Shown: positions 12,002-18,226 of the stretch, piece by piece
How the letters are laid out: each line of letters opens with the position of its first letter
Position numbering within the stretch: position 1 is the first letter of the stretch
IMG/VR virus record: IMGVR_UViG_3300047546_000921
Location: 1-25,345 of that record
Source: a virus
DNA: 25,345 nt
Direction: 5' to 3' (one strand)
Notes under the pieces: generated by a model
What the model was told of the DNA's origin: nothing
What the model saw: the letters and a program-made list of their open reading frames with translations, nothing else
The model's database searches: none
Translations under genes and position numbers: made by a program

Positions 12002-13024
12002 TTATTTGATTTTTCCGTTTATGATTTTGTAATTATTCACCTCGTAGTCATCATTTTCAAACACCTTAATGTGGGCGAATCCGTGCGCGTACTTGTTGAT
12101 GGGTGCGTAGTCCGGGTGCAGTTCAGAAAGACACGCAACGGAATACGTGTTGATCAGTTTTCCGTTTATATTGGGTTCTGAGTGCTCCGAATGTTGGTGG
12201 TGGTGTCCAACAAGGGCGTCTGCCTTTGCTGCGTTAAATAGGCCCCTTGCGACGTTTACAGGGCTGAATATCCCACGCATCAGTTCGTGTCCGTGGAGGA
12301 TTGTGAGTCTACCCGCATGGATCAGCTGCTTGTCTGGAATAAACGTGATATTTAACTTGTCCAGGTGCATGACCGACTCAAAATTGAACTCATCAAGTCC
12401 AAGAAGGTCTGGGGCGTTGTTCATGATGTAGTGGTCCCATCTTGCGTCGTGATTGCCGCACTTGTAGTAGATGGCCGCACTTGGGAATAGCCTCCTTAGC
12501 ATCTGAAGGAACTCACGAGTCAATAGAATCTCCCTTGCAAGGTTCCTCTTGCGTGGGTCCTTCTGAAACCTGCTTATCGCATAAAAGTCTATAAGGTCCC
12601 CGTTTAAGAGGATTGTGTTGACCCTTTTTTCAATCCCATACTCAATCGCCGTGGTTAACGCGGGGATGTTGTGGTATGGGATGTGAATATCGCTTAAAAG
12701 AAGGATATCGTTGTGGTTGCGTGGGATCTTAAATGGCTTGTACTCCGTCTCTAAAGATTCCGGAAGTCCAAGGGGGTTGTAGTTCTTGTCAAACTTGCTA
12801 AGGATGGAGTCAAACGCACCGGTTCGCTCTGATGTGTTAACCGACTTGGACGCCTTGACAATTGACTTTTTTACACCACGTTTTTTCCATCTATAGTACG
12901 ATGTTCTAAACGAACCAAACGTCATAATTGAACTTACGCTTGAATACTCTGTTCTGAGCTTCTCCTGCTCAGATACAGGCCTACTGTCTTCAAAGACTCG
13001 TAGGTATATTTTTTCGTGATTCAT
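12002..13024 (-). CDS. Calcineurin-like metallophosphoesterase
   Basis: 340 residues. All family motifs are present: DIH (112-114), GDLID (142-146), GNHD (190-193), HGH (244-246) and GHHHQ (273-277). They bind two metal ions and cleave phosphoesters of nucleotides or DNA. The first 55 residues (SSVSSIMTFGSFRTSYYRWK) look like a helix-turn-helix-type DNA-binding extension, not usual for small phosphatases, suggesting DNA as substrate. SbcD nucleases act with SbcC, and no SbcC is visible here. Start is the ATG at 13024, downstream of a good promoter; an upstream TTG (13042) would fall inside the -7 box. Confidence 0.8.
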   Translation of the reverse strand: MNHEKIYLRVFEDSRPVSEQEKLRTEYSSVSSIMTFGSFRTSYYRWKKRGVKKSIVKASKSVNTSERTGAFDSILSKFDKNYNPLGLPESLETEYKPFKIPRNHNDILLLSDIHIPYHNIPALTTAIEYGIEKRVNTILLNGDLIDFYAISRFQKDPRKRNLAREILLTREFLQMLRRLFPSAAIYYKCGNHDARWDHYIMNNAPDLLGLDEFNFESVMHLDKLNITFIPDKQLIHAGRLTILHGHELMRGIFSPVNVARGLFNAAKADALVGHHHQHSEHSEPNINGKLINTYSVACLSELHPDYAPINKYAHGFAHIKVFENDDYEVNNYKIINGKIK

Positions 13025-13039
13025 CGCTTGTATTGGTAA

Positions 13040-13071
13040 CAAATTTATAGTATTAAGTGTTACGAGCCAAA
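13040..13071 (-). promoter_or_regulatory. Promoter of the phosphoesterase gene
   Basis: Leftward: TTTG (13071-13068), 20 bases, TAAATTTG (13047-13040), 15 bases to the ATG. It sits immediately after the terminator of the previous unit, and its -33 TTTG overlaps that terminator's T tract. Confidence 0.7.
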
Positions 13072-13721: not shown

Positions 13722-13906
13722 TTTATTAAGTATATTGGGTTATTTGTTAAGCGATATAGGTCCGATGACACCTCCTTGAGCCTGCTGTGTTTCTTCTTGT
13801 ACTCGGCGGCTTTTTCTCCGTTGTTCTCGGCCCTAGTTATGTTCATGCTTGTGATGAGTTCTAACCTTTCCTCCCGGAGTTTATTTATTTTCTCTTCTTT
13901 CATCAA
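13718..13906 (-). CDS. Small charged helical protein, 62 aa
   Basis: 62 residues: MMKEEKINKLREERLELITS, then MNITRAENNGEKAAEYKKKH and a C-terminal LYRLTNNPIYLIK. Two charged amphipathic helices with Leu/Ile spacing, likely a helical hairpin or coiled coil. Overlaps the upstream DnaA-domain gene by 26 bases and the next gene by 4. Position in the replication block hints at an accessory role. Not recognised. Confidence 0.6.
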   Translation of the reverse strand: MMKEEKINKLREERLELITSMNITRAENNGEKAAEYKKKHSRLKEVSSDLYRLTNNPIYLIK

Positions 13907-14315
13907 TAACGTCCATTATTGACTCGTATGACTTGGGGTCAAGTCTTTCGAGTACTGAATTAATAACTGTTCTGTGTTGTTTCGAGTAGTTGTAGTCAAC
14001 TATCGCCTTATTAGTTCCGTAGAGGACCGTTGAATGATCCCTTCCGATTATACTTCCAATCTCCTGGTACGTTGCCGTTGTACACGACCTCATCACAAGG
14101 AAGAATATCTGACGTGCGGTGACGTACTCCCCTTCCCTTGATCTTGAGGCCATCTGTTCAAACGTGATTCCAAGGACTGACTCTATTGCGTTTATAATCT
14201 CCGCCTTCAGTTCTTCGTACTCAACTTTCTTATTGAAATATATCTGGGTGAATAATGCCTTGTTCTTTCTCGGTACAAGTTCGATTAAGTCTCTATATCT
14301 TTTTGTCTCTATCAT
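13881..14315 (-). CDS. DnaA C-terminal (domain IV)-like DNA-binding protein
   Basis: 144 residues from the ATG at 14315, which follows AAACAAGACACA, the A-rich leader seen at other genes here. MASRSREGEYVTARQIFFLV and YQEIGSIIGRDHSTVLYGTN are the helix-turn-helix and the GRDHSTVL signature of DnaA domain IV, which binds DnaA boxes. The AAA+ ATPase of full DnaA is absent, so it can bind origin-like DNA but not melt it. It lies next to SSB and primase-helicase and may recruit or block host DnaA sites. An upstream ATG (14375) overlapping the SSB stop is less likely because a hairpin lies in between. Confidence 0.8.
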   Translation of the reverse strand: MIETKRYRDLIELVPRKNKALFTQIYFNKKVEYEELKAEIINAIESVLGITFEQMASRSREGEYVTARQIFFLVMRSCTTATYQEIGSIIGRDHSTVLYGTNKAIVDYNYSKQHRTVINSVLERLDPKSYESIMDVIDERRENK

Positions 14316-14332
14316 TGTGTCTTGTTTAAAGC

Positions 14333-14356
14333 GGGGGTCAGCGGATTCCGACCCCC
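14333..14356 (-). promoter_or_regulatory. Hairpin between SSB and DnaA-like genes
   Basis: GGGGGTC (14333-14339) and GACCCCC (14350-14356), perfect 7-bp arms with a 10-base loop. Leftward it is followed by GCTTTAAAC, too poor in T for a clear terminator. It may trim or attenuate the transcript between highly needed SSB and the gene after it. Confidence 0.5.
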
Positions 14357-14371
14357 TAGCTTGGTTAGTTA

Positions 14372-15019
14372 TCAAAATGGCAAGTCATCGTCATCGTTCT
14401 TTACCGCAGCAGCGTCTAGCTTTTTCACGAACTCCTCTGCACGTTGGGTGTTTGTCTTACCGATTGCAGGGATGAACGTGTTGTTGAGATAGTTCTCAAA
14501 GTAATCCTGACGGTCTGTATCATCCCACACGTCAGTTCCCTTTACACGAATTTTCTGCATCTGCGGAAGGTCACCAGGGTTGTCCTTGGTCCAAAAGTGT
14601 TGGATGTTGTCCTTTGAGTTAGACTCCTTCAAATAAAGCATCGTCTTTTTTGTTCCGTCAATCACCTTCATCCAAGGTCTGAACTCAATCTCCTTTGTTG
14701 TGTCGATGTTCGGCATACAGAGGAAGAATCCGGAGCTGTACCGTGAACTCCAAGGCATCTCAAGAACAAACTTTTCGAAACCGTCCTCAATCTCAATCTG
14801 AAGCTTTGATCCGTAGCCCATTGTTGAGTCGTGACGTTTCACGTTAGTAATCTTTCCGCTCACCGAGTCGTAGCGGTATTCCCACCAGATCTTTGAGCCG
14901 TCTTTTGAGGTGCACTTAACCGTGTTAGGCTCCTCTGTTTTTACTCGTTTAGCAATCTTTCCGTCGCTAATTGATAGGTAGTTTACGTTACCTGTCGAAC
15001 CACTAGAATTTAATCCCAT
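14372..15019 (-). CDS. Single-strand DNA-binding protein
   Basis: 215 residues. The protein ends DDDDLPF, the acidic, Pro-Phe-tipped tail by which SSB proteins recruit partners. The body is beta-rich (KIWWEYRYDSVSGKITNVKR, KLQIEIEDGFEKFVLEMPWS) as expected for an OB fold, and aromatic residues there could stack on bases. Longer than bacterial SSB (about 175) and of phage type. It has its own full promoter, fitting the large amounts such proteins need, and lies beside the primase-helicase. Confident in role; exact family not named. Confidence 0.8.
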   Translation of the reverse strand: MGLNSSGSTGNVNYLSISDGKIAKRVKTEEPNTVKCTSKDGSKIWWEYRYDSVSGKITNVKRHDSTMGYGSKLQIEIEDGFEKFVLEMPWSSRYSSGFFLCMPNIDTTKEIEFRPWMKVIDGTKKTMLYLKESNSKDNIQHFWTKDNPGDLPQMQKIRVKGTDVWDDTDRQDYFENYLNNTFIPAIGKTNTQRAEEFVKKLDAAAVKNDDDDLPF

Positions 15020-15107: not shown

Positions 15108-17012
15108 TTAATACTCCCAAGATTCTTTGAATTCGTTCGGGTGGTATGTATCGGACTTTTTACCAAACCCGTAGTTCGGAAGAATCTTTGGCCTTTCCTC
15201 AAACACCTCCGTCTGGGTGTACATCCCCTTGATTGCCTGCTCCATTGGGTCCACGTTGTCGAATATAAACCGCCTTTTATTGCGGAATAATTCAAAACTG
15301 ATCATTCCCTTCATTCCAACGATTTTCTGCCTTCTAATCTTCTTAGAATGAAATTCACAGGCGGGTGAATCCGGTATCGTCTGGGCAAACGGCCTGTGGT
15401 AGATGATGATATTGTCGGCCTTGTTGTTCCACATCGCGCCATCCGCAAGGTCAAACACCTCTGGGCAGGGGTAGTTGCCATCGTCACCCTTTCTCATCTT
15501 GTGCGGGTGGACTATGATATCAAAGTACACGTTATTCTTCCTTGCAAAGCGTATGCAGTCAGAGAGGAACGTCTCAAGGTACTTGTCGCTACGGCCACCG
15601 CTCTTGGCGTAGTCGTTGGACATTTGATTGAATGGGTCGATGATTACACGGTCAACACCATGCTTAATGATCAGGCTCAAGAAGACCTCCTTCACGTATT
15701 CCGGTGTCGGTGCTACGTTCTTTGGATACACGATGAATATGTTCTGACCAATCCAGTCGTATATCTTGGCGTATGACTCATATTTCGGCCTTCCTGGGTT
15801 CTTTGGTGTGCAATCCATCCCAAAATATATCTCAACCAGGTCGTGATAGAACTGCTCAGCAGGAAGTTCCTCTGGCGTGAATATGGCAACCTTCTCACCG
15901 AACTTAATCAACCTGAACAAAAGTTCCCACTTCATAAAGCTTGACTTACCATAGTTACCGATTCCGCTCATCACCGTGAGTTCTCCCTTCACCCTCTTGA
16001 AGTGTTTATCAAGTAGTGGAACACCAAGTTCTCTTGCCGCCTGATATCCCTTCTCGTAAATCTCCAAGGCTTTGTCACGAACCTCCTCCGCGTAGATCAC
16101 GTCCTCCTTAGCCATTTCTTCTGCATCCTCCTCAGTTACAACGATATCCACCTCCTTGCGCGTTGACTTGGTGACAAGCCTTTCCTCGCTGAATTCAGCC
16201 GTGTTGAACTGAGCCATGTTTGATCTGTACGCGCTCCTTACAGCCGACCTGCACTCCCTCTGTGTGAACGATGAATCTGGCGTAATGTATGTGCTAATCA
16301 ATGAGTTAGCAGTCTCCTCGTCAATCCCAAACCTGCAACAACTCGCTGCGAGTTTGAACACAAAGTGATTCCGCTCACCCTCACGAAACGCGTCACCCCT
16401 TTTTGAAATCCATGTGAGAAGGTTTTGAAATGTTTCAATGACATCTTTTGCCGCAACCTTCTCTGTTACAACCTTTTGCTCTTCGTAGATGTTAAATGTT
16501 GAGGCGGCCTCTGTTAAATAAATATCGGGATCATACGACTCAAAGCAGAGCCTTGAAAGATTTCTACCTGTCTTATCCACGTCTGGGTGGAGTGCAAGAA
16601 GTGCATTGAAGTGTTCCTTGTGTTTTGATGGGTCGGCTATCTTGACAAGAGCCTTGAGTCCCTTGCCTGATGGAGAAAGCCAAACCGCCGTCATGTATTT
16701 TATAGCGGACAATTCATTTCTCTTTTGGGCAATAAATGGGACATTATCGAAATCAAGCACAATGTACCCGGAGTGTTCGATAAGCGCGGAGTCCTTTCGT
16801 GTTGAGAATACACCGCTGAAACAAACCGCAGGGAGTGTCTTTTTTATCTCGTCGGCCTCCTTCTTGGTTTTCGCGTTTCGGATAAGCTCGTTAATCTCCT
16901 TGCTCTTTCCGTCTCGAATCCGATTAAGAGCGCCCAGGACAGAGATTGTGTGTCCTTGCAGATCGTTGAAGTCTTTGTAGATTGATACTTTACCATGCAT
17001 TGTTTGAGTCAT
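15108..17012 (-). CDS. Primase-helicase fusion
   Basis: 634 residues. N-terminal primase: YIVLDFDNV with the DxD pair (87, 89), SPSGKGLKALVKI (113-125) and GRNLSRLCFESYDPDIY (149-165), resembling the VirE-N/BT4734-type primases common in Bacteroidota elements. A helical linker follows (residues 190-265). C-terminal RecA-like helicase: Walker A GIGNYGKSS (350-358), FTPEE (378-382), Walker B RVIIDPFNQM (455-464) and IIVHPHKMRK (499-508), as in DnaB/Twinkle helicases. It would unwind the fork and make primers. The start at 17012 overlaps the initiator gene by 23 bases; an ATG at 17000 is possible. Confidence 0.85.
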   Translation of the reverse strand: MTQTMHGKVSIYKDFNDLQGHTISVLGALNRIRDGKSKEINELIRNAKTKKEADEIKKTLPAVCFSGVFSTRKDSALIEHSGYIVLDFDNVPFIAQKRNELSAIKYMTAVWLSPSGKGLKALVKIADPSKHKEHFNALLALHPDVDKTGRNLSRLCFESYDPDIYLTEAASTFNIYEEQKVVTEKVAAKDVIETFQNLLTWISKRGDAFREGERNHFVFKLAASCCRFGIDEETANSLISTYITPDSSFTQRECRSAVRSAYRSNMAQFNTAEFSEERLVTKSTRKEVDIVVTEEDAEEMAKEDVIYAEEVRDKALEIYEKGYQAARELGVPLLDKHFKRVKGELTVMSGIGNYGKSSFMKWELLFRLIKFGEKVAIFTPEELPAEQFYHDLVEIYFGMDCTPKNPGRPKYESYAKIYDWIGQNIFIVYPKNVAPTPEYVKEVFLSLIIKHGVDRVIIDPFNQMSNDYAKSGGRSDKYLETFLSDCIRFARKNNVYFDIIVHPHKMRKGDDGNYPCPEVFDLADGAMWNNKADNIIIYHRPFAQTIPDSPACEFHSKKIRRQKIVGMKGMISFELFRNKRRFIFDNVDPMEQAIKGMYTQTEVFEERPKILPNYGFGKKSDTYHPNEFKESWEY

Positions 17013-17637
17013 AATTCGTTTGATTGCTTGTTATTTTTTTCATTGGTTCATCTTCCCATCGCTTGTCTCTGAGGTATCGTTCGGGGTCTTTCCAGTACTT
17101 GGCCTCTCTTCCGAACTTGTGGTTGTCCATTAACTCGACAGCCTTAATTCTGTCGTCTTCACGCATCTTGTTCCATACGTCTTGAGCCTTCTTCTTTCCG
17201 CTCTTCTTGTTGTATGAATTCCAAAAATCCTCAAATGTATATTTATTTGTTATCTCTTTCTTTGTATTATCTATATATGTAGGGGCGGGTTTTCCGATTT
17301 CCGATTTCCCGATTGCGGGAAATCCGCATTCCGTTGAAATCCGCTCGTAGTATACGATGTAGTTAAATCCACGAGATAAACCGTCCGAACCAACAATCCT
17401 AACCGACTGTATGTAACCAAGCGTCTCAAGTTCGTCCCACGCACTGGATATTGAGTCCTTTCCGTCAAGAAAATACTCGCTCAGCTTGGTCTTGTAGATC
17501 ACCCAGTCGCTTGGGAGTGATAAAAGGAAGGATAGAAGTCCCTTGGCCTTTAGGCTAACGCTTGGGTCTTTTAGGAACTCTGTGGGGACCATCGCGAATG
17601 GGACATTCTTGGTTTTTATGATTTGTCCTGTATTCAT
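16990..17637 (-). CDS. Replication initiator-like winged-helix protein
   Basis: 215 residues. The N-terminal domain VPFAMVPTEFLKDPSVSLKA, LLSFLLSLPSDWVIYKTKLS and SAWDELETLGYI is the winged helix of phage and plasmid replication proteins (helix_turn_helix of the DnaD/RepA type). A short linker with a doubled IGKSEIGKPAP follows, then a basic C-terminal helical part FEDFWNSYNKKSGKKKAQDVW. It lies directly upstream of the primase-helicase and probably loads it. An inverted repeat with direct repeats sits inside the linker DNA, as in lambda-type initiator genes that contain the origin. Start ATG directly follows a terminator-like T tract. Confidence 0.75.
   Translation of the reverse strand: MNTGQIIKTKNVPFAMVPTEFLKDPSVSLKAKGLLSFLLSLPSDWVIYKTKLSEYFLDGKDSISSAWDELETLGYIQSVRIVGSDGLSRGFNYIVYYERISTECGFPAIGKSEIGKPAPTYIDNTKKEITNKYTFEDFWNSYNKKSGKKKAQDVWNKMREDDRIKAVELMDNHKFGREAKYWKDPERYLRDKRWEDEPMKKITSNQTNYDSNNAW
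17294..17324. repeat. Inverted and direct repeats inside the initiator gene
   Basis: GATTTCCCG-ATTG-CGGGAAATC (17303-17324), perfect 9-bp arms, preceded by two CCGATTTC units (from 17294 and 17301). Candidate replication origin by analogy with iterons inside lambda O. Confidence 0.5.
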
Positions 17638-17673
17638 AAAAAAAAGTAGCCCGTAAGAGCAACTTTACGGGCT
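17638..17673 (-). terminator. Terminator hairpin directly before the initiator ATG
   Basis: Leftward: AGCCCGTAA-AGTTGCTC-TTACGGGCT (9-bp perfect stem), then AC and TTTTTTTT; the last T is followed at once by the ATG. It would end the upstream transcript and make initiator expression depend on read-through. Confidence 0.75.
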
Positions 17674-17747
17674 GGGTTTGGTAGAGATAATCTTACCTTG
17701 TCCAACCCTCGGTTGTTGTTGCTCTTAACAAACGAGGATTGGAATAC
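17638..17747 (-). promoter_or_regulatory. Two-hairpin attenuator-like leader
   Basis: Upstream of the terminator is a second hairpin: CCAATCCTCG and CGAGGGTTGG (17742-17733 with 17711-17702; 10 pairs, one G-T). Its loop contains TAAGAGCAAC (17727-17718), the exact complement of GTTGCTCTTA (17663-17654) in the terminator loop and arm. Pairing between them would open the terminator stem. That is the layout of an attenuator/antiterminator or a kissing-loop RNA. Confidence 0.5.
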
Positions 17748-17751
17748 GAGG

Positions 17752-17759
17752 CAAATATA
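17752..17759 (-). promoter_or_regulatory. -7 box TATATTTG upstream of the attenuator-like leader
   Basis: Exact -7 match, just after the stop of the small zinc-binding gene; no good -33 element. If used, the transcript of the two-hairpin leader would start near 17748. Confidence 0.4.
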
Positions 17760-17760
17760 T

Positions 17761-17922
17761 TCATTCGCTGTCGTTATCCTCCGAGTCTTGTTGCAAAAAA
17801 ATGTGAAATGCCTCACAATCGTCGCAGTAGTAGGCGCGTTGTGCCGTTCCGAACTTTTCTATGATTTCGATTCGGCGTTTGTATTTCTTACGCCCACAAC
17901 CGTATGTATCATTCAGCGACAA
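17761..17922 (-). CDS. Small zinc-binding-type protein, 53 aa (TTG start)
   Basis: 53 residues: MSLNDTYGCGRKKYKRRIEI, then IEKFGTAQRAYYCDDCEAFH and an acidic tail. The pattern C.RKKY ... YYC..C..FH is that of a family of tiny phage and bacterial zinc-ribbon proteins in which a basic N-terminal half pairs with a YxCxxCxxxH knuckle. Frame opens after a stop at its upstream side and has no ATG in the right place; TTG (17922) is the probable start, with CTG two codons further on. A promoter-like box lies 18 bases upstream. A nucleic-acid-binding helper of the replication block is the likeliest role. Confidence 0.6.
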   Translation of the reverse strand: MSLNDTYGCGRKKYKRRIEIIEKFGTAQRAYYCDDCEAFHIFLQQDSEDNDSE

Positions 17923-17973: not shown

Positions 17974-18003
17974 TTTAATCAAGAAAAAATGTGCGTATAT
18001 TTG
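17974..18003 (+). promoter_or_regulatory. Rightward promoter of the packaging block
   Basis: TTTA (17974-17977), 18 bases, TATATTTG (17996-18003), then CCCT and ATG. The ATG begins five bases after the box, exactly as at 7680-7692, so the mRNA is probably leaderless. Confidence 0.6.
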
Positions 18004-18007
18004 CCCT

Positions 18008-18226
18008 ATGATTAATTTACGCCCCCCAGACGGACGAGTATTCGTCACCATCGAAAGTGAAAACGGCAAAAACGTAGACGCCGTAATAACTCACGCCGGA
18101 AACGACACGGAGTTACAGGTAGGACAGAAGATTTGTGTTCCAAAGGCCAAGGTCGACAAGGTCGAATTGCAGGACACCGAGACTTACTCTGTTCACGAGA
18201 ATAACGTATTTTTTGTTTACGAGTAA
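18008..18226 (+). CDS. Short GroES-like (co-chaperonin) protein
   Basis: 72 residues. LRPPDGRVFVTIESENGKNV at the start and LQVGQKICVPKAKVDKVELQ, then TYSVHENNVFFVYE at the end follow the GroES order RPL.DRV.V, KVGD.V...., Y.....I..V.E. GroES caps GroEL to fold proteins, and T4-type phages bring their own cap. Here the protein is about 25 residues shorter than GroES: the GG.V. mobile loop that grips GroEL is missing or much shortened, so it may not function as a cap. First gene of the packaging block, probably leaderless. Fold assignment moderately sure, function uncertain. Confidence 0.55.
   Translation: MINLRPPDGRVFVTIESENGKNVDAVITHAGNDTELQVGQKICVPKAKVDKVELQDTETYSVHENNVFFVYE

Follow-up and report, generated by a model that had tools for sequence, protein, structure and literature searches.

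A putative kissing-loop attenuator in the leader of a replication initiator gene of uncultured Bacteroidetes-type phages

The stretch of DNA analyzed here (25,345 nt, referred to below as the window), a viral record of 25 kb that is probably a fragment, encodes a replication initiator (Table 1). This protein matches the PHROG 270 replication initiation protein profile (3.6e-19) and has an HTH_36-like N terminus that scores below the Pfam cut-off, and its tblastn relatives carry the names of replication initiation proteins or DnaD-like loaders of Staphylococcus and Lactococcus phages. A primase/helicase-like gene lies 3' of the initiator, with a gene for a DnaA C-terminal-domain protein further on. 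We note that the replication region also encodes a metallophosphoesterase, and that its DnaA-related protein is a stand-alone C-terminal (DNA-binding) domain.

The initiator gene and the 110-nt predicted RNA leader that precedes it (17747-17638) are both on the minus strand. Upstream of the leader is a match to the Bacteroidetes sigma-A -7 box, whose consensus spans -12 to -5 (PMC9723704, PMC6847099). Given this spacing and a box at 17759-17752, transcription is predicted to start at about 17747, the edge of the feature delimited in the first-pass annotation of this DNA. The predicted folding energy of the leader is -40.6 kcal/mol, with a z-score of -5.4 relative to shuffled sequences, and the leader scores 112.7 bits with covariance model R1, which includes the window itself. 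Its 5'-terminal hairpin, SL1, consists of 11 bp, one U-C mismatch, 5 bp and a 9-nt loop, AAGAGCAAC (17726-17718), and so has 16 bp with one mismatch rather than the 10 bp first ascribed to it. It is followed by a small middle hairpin that is weak and poorly conserved (64% of cells paired in the alignment) and then by the intrinsic-terminator hairpin of the leader, the loop of which is also given as AGUUGCUC. The T tract ACTTTTTTTT (17647-17638) runs directly into the initiator ATG at 17637, as had been annotated.

Two observations concern the DNA 5' of the leader. An unlisted small minus-strand ORF (..YYCDDCEAFHIFLQQDSEDNDSE), possibly a zinc-ribbon fragment, ends at 17761, immediately 5' of the -7 box. 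With a plus-strand TATATTTG box at 17996-18003, just before a plus-strand ATG at 18008, this intergenic region resembles one with divergent promoters.

Table 1. Features of the window, second elements in related phage genomes, and loop pairs of the leader and its relatives
Feature	Location	Strand	Basis or remark
Metallophosphoesterase	12002-13042	-	
Stand-alone DnaA C-terminal (DNA-binding) domain protein	13881-14375	-	
Replication initiator, 215 aa	16990..17637	-	N-terminal HTH_36-like domain; PHROG 270
T tract ACTTTTTTTT, abutting start codon	17638..17647	-	Sequence
Predicted leader RNA, 110 nt	17638..17747	-	Folding; covariance model R1
Terminator hairpin, 9 bp, 8-nt loop AGTTGCTC	17648..17673	-	Fold; covariation
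Kissing strand 2, GTTGCTC, within terminator loop	17657..17663	-	Complement and covariation
Small middle hairpin GGTA...TACC, between SL1 and terminator	17680..17697	-	Fold
SL1, 5'-terminal hairpin	17701..17743	-	Fold; covariation in relatives
Kissing strand 1, GAGCAAC, within SL1 loop	17718..17724	-	Complement and covariation
-7 box TATATTTG	17752..17759	-	Sequence match to Bacteroidetes sigma-A TAnnTTTG
Second element	L266:1508-1627 = G001:C1:57007-57126	+	Loop CUGGUAG
Second element	L267 = G008:C1:7810-7926	-	Loop UGGAGAG
Second element	L268 = G010:C1:2590-2709	+	Loop UAGAGAG
Loop pair GAGCAAC/GUUGCUC	Window		
Loop pair GAGUCAC/GUGACUC	L001		
Loop pair GAACCAC/GUGGUUC	L003		
Loop pair GUGGAGU/ACUCCAC	L021		
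Loop pair UGCGACC/GGUCGCA	L015		
Loop pair UCUCACC/GGUGAGA	L016		
Loop pair GUAGAGG/CCUCUAC	L025		
Loop pair GUCGCAG/CUGCGAC	L033		
Loop pair GAGUCAG/CUGACUC	L029		
Loop pair AUGCAG/CUGCAU	L035		
Loop pair CCGUAC/GUACGG	L108		
Loop pair GUUGCAG/CUGCAAC	L120		
Loop pair GUCGGAU/AUCCGAC	L259		

The first-pass annotation singled out this leader for a 10-base exact complement between the SL1 loop and the terminator, and we find the match as described: TAAGAGCAAC (17727-17718) is the exact complement of GTTGCTCTTA (17663-17654), with no other copies of either in the window. The complement had been taken to cover the terminator loop and one arm of its stem. In relatives, the 7-bp loop-loop core (GAGCAAC/GUUGCUC) is conserved and the outer 3 bp, which fall in stem bases or flanking loop bases, are not. 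The match was also thought unlikely to arise by chance, which holds only moderately for the window copy: a 10-base complement appeared in 30 of 5,000 dinucleotide shuffles of the leader, and one with at least four G/C in 12 of 5,000. These frequencies (12 to 30 in 5,000) leave some room for an ordinary hairpin and an ordinary terminator that are complementary by accident. The significance of the complement derives from its conservation in relatives rather than from the window copy by itself, and an accidental match is exceedingly improbable in view of about 30 covarying versions and of the permutation and descriptor controls given below.

Relatives were found in IMG/VR by searching with the initiator protein, not the RNA, yielding 45 and then 80 partly overlapping loci. 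They share a layout of TAnnTTTG, hairpin, linker, terminator hairpin, T run and ATG, with the TAnnTTTG box kept just 5' of SL1 in nearly all of them and the T run and adjacent start codon retained across loop versions. Within each main family the loops are complementary and between families their sequence differs, giving about 30 versions by our own count. When the 5' and 3' halves of 24 versions were permuted, the observed value of 455 compared with 268 +/- 26 expected and a maximum of 353, with 0 of 20,000 permutations as high; for L015 and L016, whose leaders are longer, the 5' windows in this test were placed by hand. Alignment A2 contains sequences from protein searches only and has the kiss written as a pseudoknot for pair counts. 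In it, 97.5% of the cells of the kiss helix are paired, three pairs show double changes, one-sided changes are absent, and the sole unpaired row is the misaligned L021. The corresponding value is 100% in alignment A3, which was gathered by requiring matching loops, and for this reason A2 provides the fair count. The SL1 and terminator stems also covary in relatives (alignments including A2).

Conservation of the complement in relatives, which the first-pass annotation had put forward beforehand as the check on its reading, is thus present, and the uncompensated loop variation that it named as contrary evidence is not seen. Its suggestion of a kissing RNA is strongly supported, the loops varying with compensation in about 30 versions. 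The comparison establishes that the predicted loop-loop kiss is under selection, and we regard the leader as almost certain to be a functional regulatory RNA. The original observation is confirmed and is weightier than the single sequence suggests.

Some loci depart from this pattern. The leader is absent directly 5' of the initiator in L024, L064 and L066, and in L062, L063, L130 and L131 the 5' strand matches and the hairpin around it is not clear. At L065 (1390-1500), the leader is Firmicutes-like, has a -10 box of the sigma-70 type and contains a 7-nt match (AAGCGGA/TCCGCTT) without an SL1 hairpin or a T run, and with possible pairing over the Shine-Dalgarno region. It could be a chance match or a translational relative, and we count it as unproven.

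We also used a descriptor that fixes no loop sequence and asks for a TAnnTTTG box, a loop, a complementary loop and a T run. It gave 136 matches across the 1.30 Mb of fetched loci and a single match in the shuffle; the loci overlap, and the matches are therefore not independent. Among 61 unique instances, 54 lie directly 5' of a replication initiator. A 16-base terminator pattern occurs at 58 places in IMG/VR, with the full leader at 26; the remaining places are probably chance. The genes behind the leader are initiators with exchanged N-terminal domains (MNTGQI, MHNQYS [PHROG 270, 3.4e-28] and a chimera in L148), and in L012 and L013 a leader nearly identical to that of L008 is accompanied by a diverged initiator. 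In L252-L254 the leader precedes other ORFs, near a stretch matching the C-terminal part of the initiator. By these comparisons, the leader is portable as a module and occurs ahead of initiators of several types. We note that L009/L148 and L146, set against the window gene (16990-17637), share with it both the leader and the C-terminal domain (..YWKDPxRYLRDxRWEDE..), the N-terminal DNA-binding domain being swapped. An ORF lies between leader and initiator in L264 (HNH-like, 1101-1499) and L124 (GIY-YIG-like, 769-1182), as judged by inspection of the translations; such placement is often seen for homing-type endonucleases.

The loops also change between closely related phages, as illustrated by three pairs chosen as the clearest. 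Between the leaders of L015 and L016, 6 of the 14 loop sites differ, against 0 of the 136 others (Fisher p = 2e-7), with all six changes compensating and the flanking DNA differing by a few per cent. The figures are 4 of 14 loop sites against 1 of 97 others for L001 and L009, and 7 of 12 against 4 of 73 for L123 and L259. Such loop-specific turnover is as expected of a putative specificity determinant and would not be expected of a purely structural contact. Recombination with donors having the same flanks may be its source. The turnover resembles the situation in I-complex plasmids, in which compatibility is altered by a few changes in the RNAI loop (PMC10724649).

The geometry of the kiss bears on how it could act. 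Unpairing both loop segments costs at most 0.5 kcal/mol relative to the minimum-energy fold in 49 of the 61 instances, and in these both segments are hairpin loops of 6-10 nt. The two loops lie 38-62 nt apart in one molecule, and the conserved core of 6-7 bp is limited to them. The terminator stem is stable alone (about 10-22 kcal/mol). SL1 length tends to rise with linker length (rho 0.54, p 0.009), a correlation confounded by relatedness; rod length and linker length show no significant overall correlation (rho 0.26). The first-pass annotation had envisaged a switch between terminated and read-through states, in which the loop would invade the terminator arm. Complementarity to the arm is lost in L004, L008, L078 and L115 with the 7-bp core kept, and strand invasion as a conserved feature is rejected, since the complement past 7 bp is not kept. 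Because the core is restricted to the loops and the arm complement is lost in relatives, the kiss would coexist with the terminator stem rather than act as a displacement switch. Nascent folds of the window's close family contain no consistent antiterminator pairing with the terminator 5' arm, which is free or nearly free in them; for 9 of 22 loop versions, most of them from other families, a portion of this arm can pair with bases upstream. The description of the leader as attenuator-like holds at the level of anatomy, with a promoter, a leader beginning at SL1 and an intrinsic terminator at the ATG in all main families.

With the hairpin always near the AUG, typically 8-20 nt away, the kiss could alternatively shape the region 5' of the start codon and regulate ribosome loading while leaving termination largely unchanged. 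In flavobacteria, initiation is tuned by structure close to the start (PMC6847099), and translation of ColIb-P9 repZ depends on an RNA pseudoknot (PMC8383071). We consider translational control quite unlikely here, as a T run of the intrinsic-terminator type, needless for such control, is found in every main family, and one copy of the element (L266) has no gene behind it.

That copy belongs to a set of second elements that model R1 finds in three related phage genomes (G001, G008 and G010), where they are close to a gene related to window ORF 571-1020, which we take to be NinB-like. The window itself contains no second element according to model R1 and the descriptor (n = 1 descriptor match), and antisense-strand matches of R1 are mirror images of SL1. 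IMG/VR relatives of the second-element site (L269-L275) carry five loop versions, all matched, and the second-element loops do not match the initiator leader of the same genome. Behind others of these second elements is a short ORF (MYYGLKSVSPV...), which may be non-coding because its differences do not favor third codon positions.

The second elements are relevant to the idea that the leader works only in trans, its terminated form being a functional small RNA that is self-antisense on other leader copies (conferring replication incompatibility or superinfection immunity) and the cis kiss a by-product. Matched loop pairs switch with the remaining leader unchanged, the second elements of the three genomes have a different, non-matching loop pair, and the lack of a gene behind the G001 copy means that the short RNA itself may be the product. 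A precedent is the P4 CI RNA, which is processed from its own leader, base-pairs with sites in that leader and ends transcription of the replication genes (PMC4825925). Loops at most 62 nt apart in one molecule should, however, pair in cis before they pair in trans at low RNA levels, and the relation of SL1 to linker length fits a cis constraint, subject to the confounding by relatedness. The lack of a tyrosine integrase in 26 records argues against lysogenic immunity in particular. Taken with these points, action in trans only seems unlikely.

All relatives are metagenomic, and hosts are inferred to be Bacteroidetes-type from the promoter type and two Cytophagaceae MAG contigs. Our searches found no cultured phage carrying the element. 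Candidate cultured relatives (Parageobacillus phage NIIg3.2 and Piscirickettsia, Enterococcus and Exiguobacterium plasmids) and two faecal contigs were set aside; none is among the descriptor instances listed (the faecal contigs were also inspected by eye), and in the phage and the three plasmids another ORF ends a short distance before the annotated gene or overlaps its start. The model used on Bacteroidota genomes covers the leader family of the window only. It gave two weak matches among 297 genomes and a further one in a Cytophagaceae MAG, all of which are ordinary terminators lacking SL1.

Neither the window region nor 19 loci match Rfam 15 at gathering score, including a test for P4 CI / P1 C4 immunity RNA; the best weak match is trpB (RF04312; 21.2 bits against a cut-off of 59, E = 4.3). 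A conserved core of the riboswitch type is absent, in that loops, stems and linkers vary and only the promoter, base pairing and T run persist. This bears on whether the kissing complex is a binding platform, either Rop-like or a riboswitch-like sensor, on which a bound factor decides termination. Full-loop kisses of 6-7 bp are known protein targets, and Rop binds the kissing ColE1 RNA I/II. Across loop versions, however, no sequence core beyond base pairing is conserved, unlike in ligand-binding aptamers, and we regard a scaffold role as improbable; a shape-reading protein may act on the kissing complex. ColE1 RNA I and RNA II also pair through hairpin loops of 6-7 nt that are complementary over their full length; there the two hairpins belong to separate sense and antisense RNAs, whereas here both loops lie within one leader.

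Several plasmid systems share part of this architecture. The rep attenuators of pT181 and pIP501 (staphylococcal and streptococcal plasmids) likewise lie in an initiator mRNA leader with an intrinsic terminator adjoining the start codon, and hairpin kissing sets their specificity (PMC5435934, PMC8383071). In those attenuators an opposite-strand antisense RNA is the partner and an antiterminator sequesters the 5' arm of the terminator, whereas the partner here is the terminator loop of the same RNA and nascent folds of the window's close family show no consistent antiterminator. In repZ of ColIb-P9 and the I-complex, a 5' stem-loop also forms base pairs in cis with a site adjoining the start of rep (PMC8383071); that system acts on translation and has an antisense RNA, whereas the present leader has a terminator with a T run and no conserved TAnnTTTG antisense promoter. 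Opposite-strand TAnnTTTG boxes, the only promoter type searched, occur downstream in 12 of 61 instances against 8.8 expected and at no conserved position. An antisense RNA of the pT181 or repZ RNAI type with such a promoter is not supported by this search. Leader-peptide (repY-like) attenuation is not supported either, as an ATG ORF of at least six codons starts before loop 2 in only 18 of 61 leaders.

The nearest phage case is P4 CI immunity, in which a leader 5' of phage replication genes holds mutually complementary segments and transcription is terminated before those genes (PMC4825925). In P4 the CI RNA is a processed product with seqA and seqC as its targets, whereas the leader described here, from a different phage group, has one hairpin-loop pair whose second loop is the terminator's own. 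We found no prior description of it in the literature (subscription papers and preprints lay outside our coverage), and as far as could be checked the leader is new; the principle of an RNA leader controlling a replication initiator is already known. RNA control of replication initiators is familiar from plasmids and rare in phages, the textbook phage case being P4-like satellites.

We propose, with a probability of roughly 0.6, that the leader is a cis-encoded regulatory RNA of Bacteroidetes-type phages, a kissing-loop attenuator that controls how much replication initiator is expressed. The predicted transcription start lies at SL1, which would display a 6-7 nt loop able to pair perfectly with the 6-7 nt core of the terminator loop adjoining the initiator ATG. 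The kiss would form as polymerase passes through the terminator and would alter the frequency of transcription, and perhaps of ribosome loading, into the initiator gene. In the version that we prefer, the cis kiss in the nascent RNA would hinder the terminator, allowing the first initiator mRNAs to be made. Terminated leaders would then build up with genome copies and compete for the nascent SL1 loop, and this competition would free the terminator and shut down initiator synthesis. The outcome would be dosage feedback with a specificity set by the loop sequence. We favor such copy-number feedback, with opposite outcomes of cis and trans kissing, because loop turnover suggests specificity between molecules. 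The trans step and the sign of the kiss effect are the least certain parts of this mechanism; with a terminator stem that is stable alone and a conserved kiss that does not compete with it, antitermination would need a kinetic or steric cause. A more tentative proposal, suggested by the mutual complementarity of the loops, is self-antisense replication control. Here the terminated leader might be its own trans inhibitor and the loop pair an incompatibility type switched as a unit, with some phages having two orthogonal types.

An undescribed RNA with about 30 loop versions, carrying both kissing partners in one molecule, thus stands before the initiators of uncultured Bacteroidetes-type phages. 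It would also supply a set of cis kissing terminators that are diversified in nature and apparently orthogonal, and the descriptor finds such leaders with almost no false matches in the data scanned here. The switching of matched loops predicts replication incompatibility or superinfection effects between phages of the same loop type and, were self-antisense control to hold, co-infecting phages would sense the genome dosage of their own kind only.
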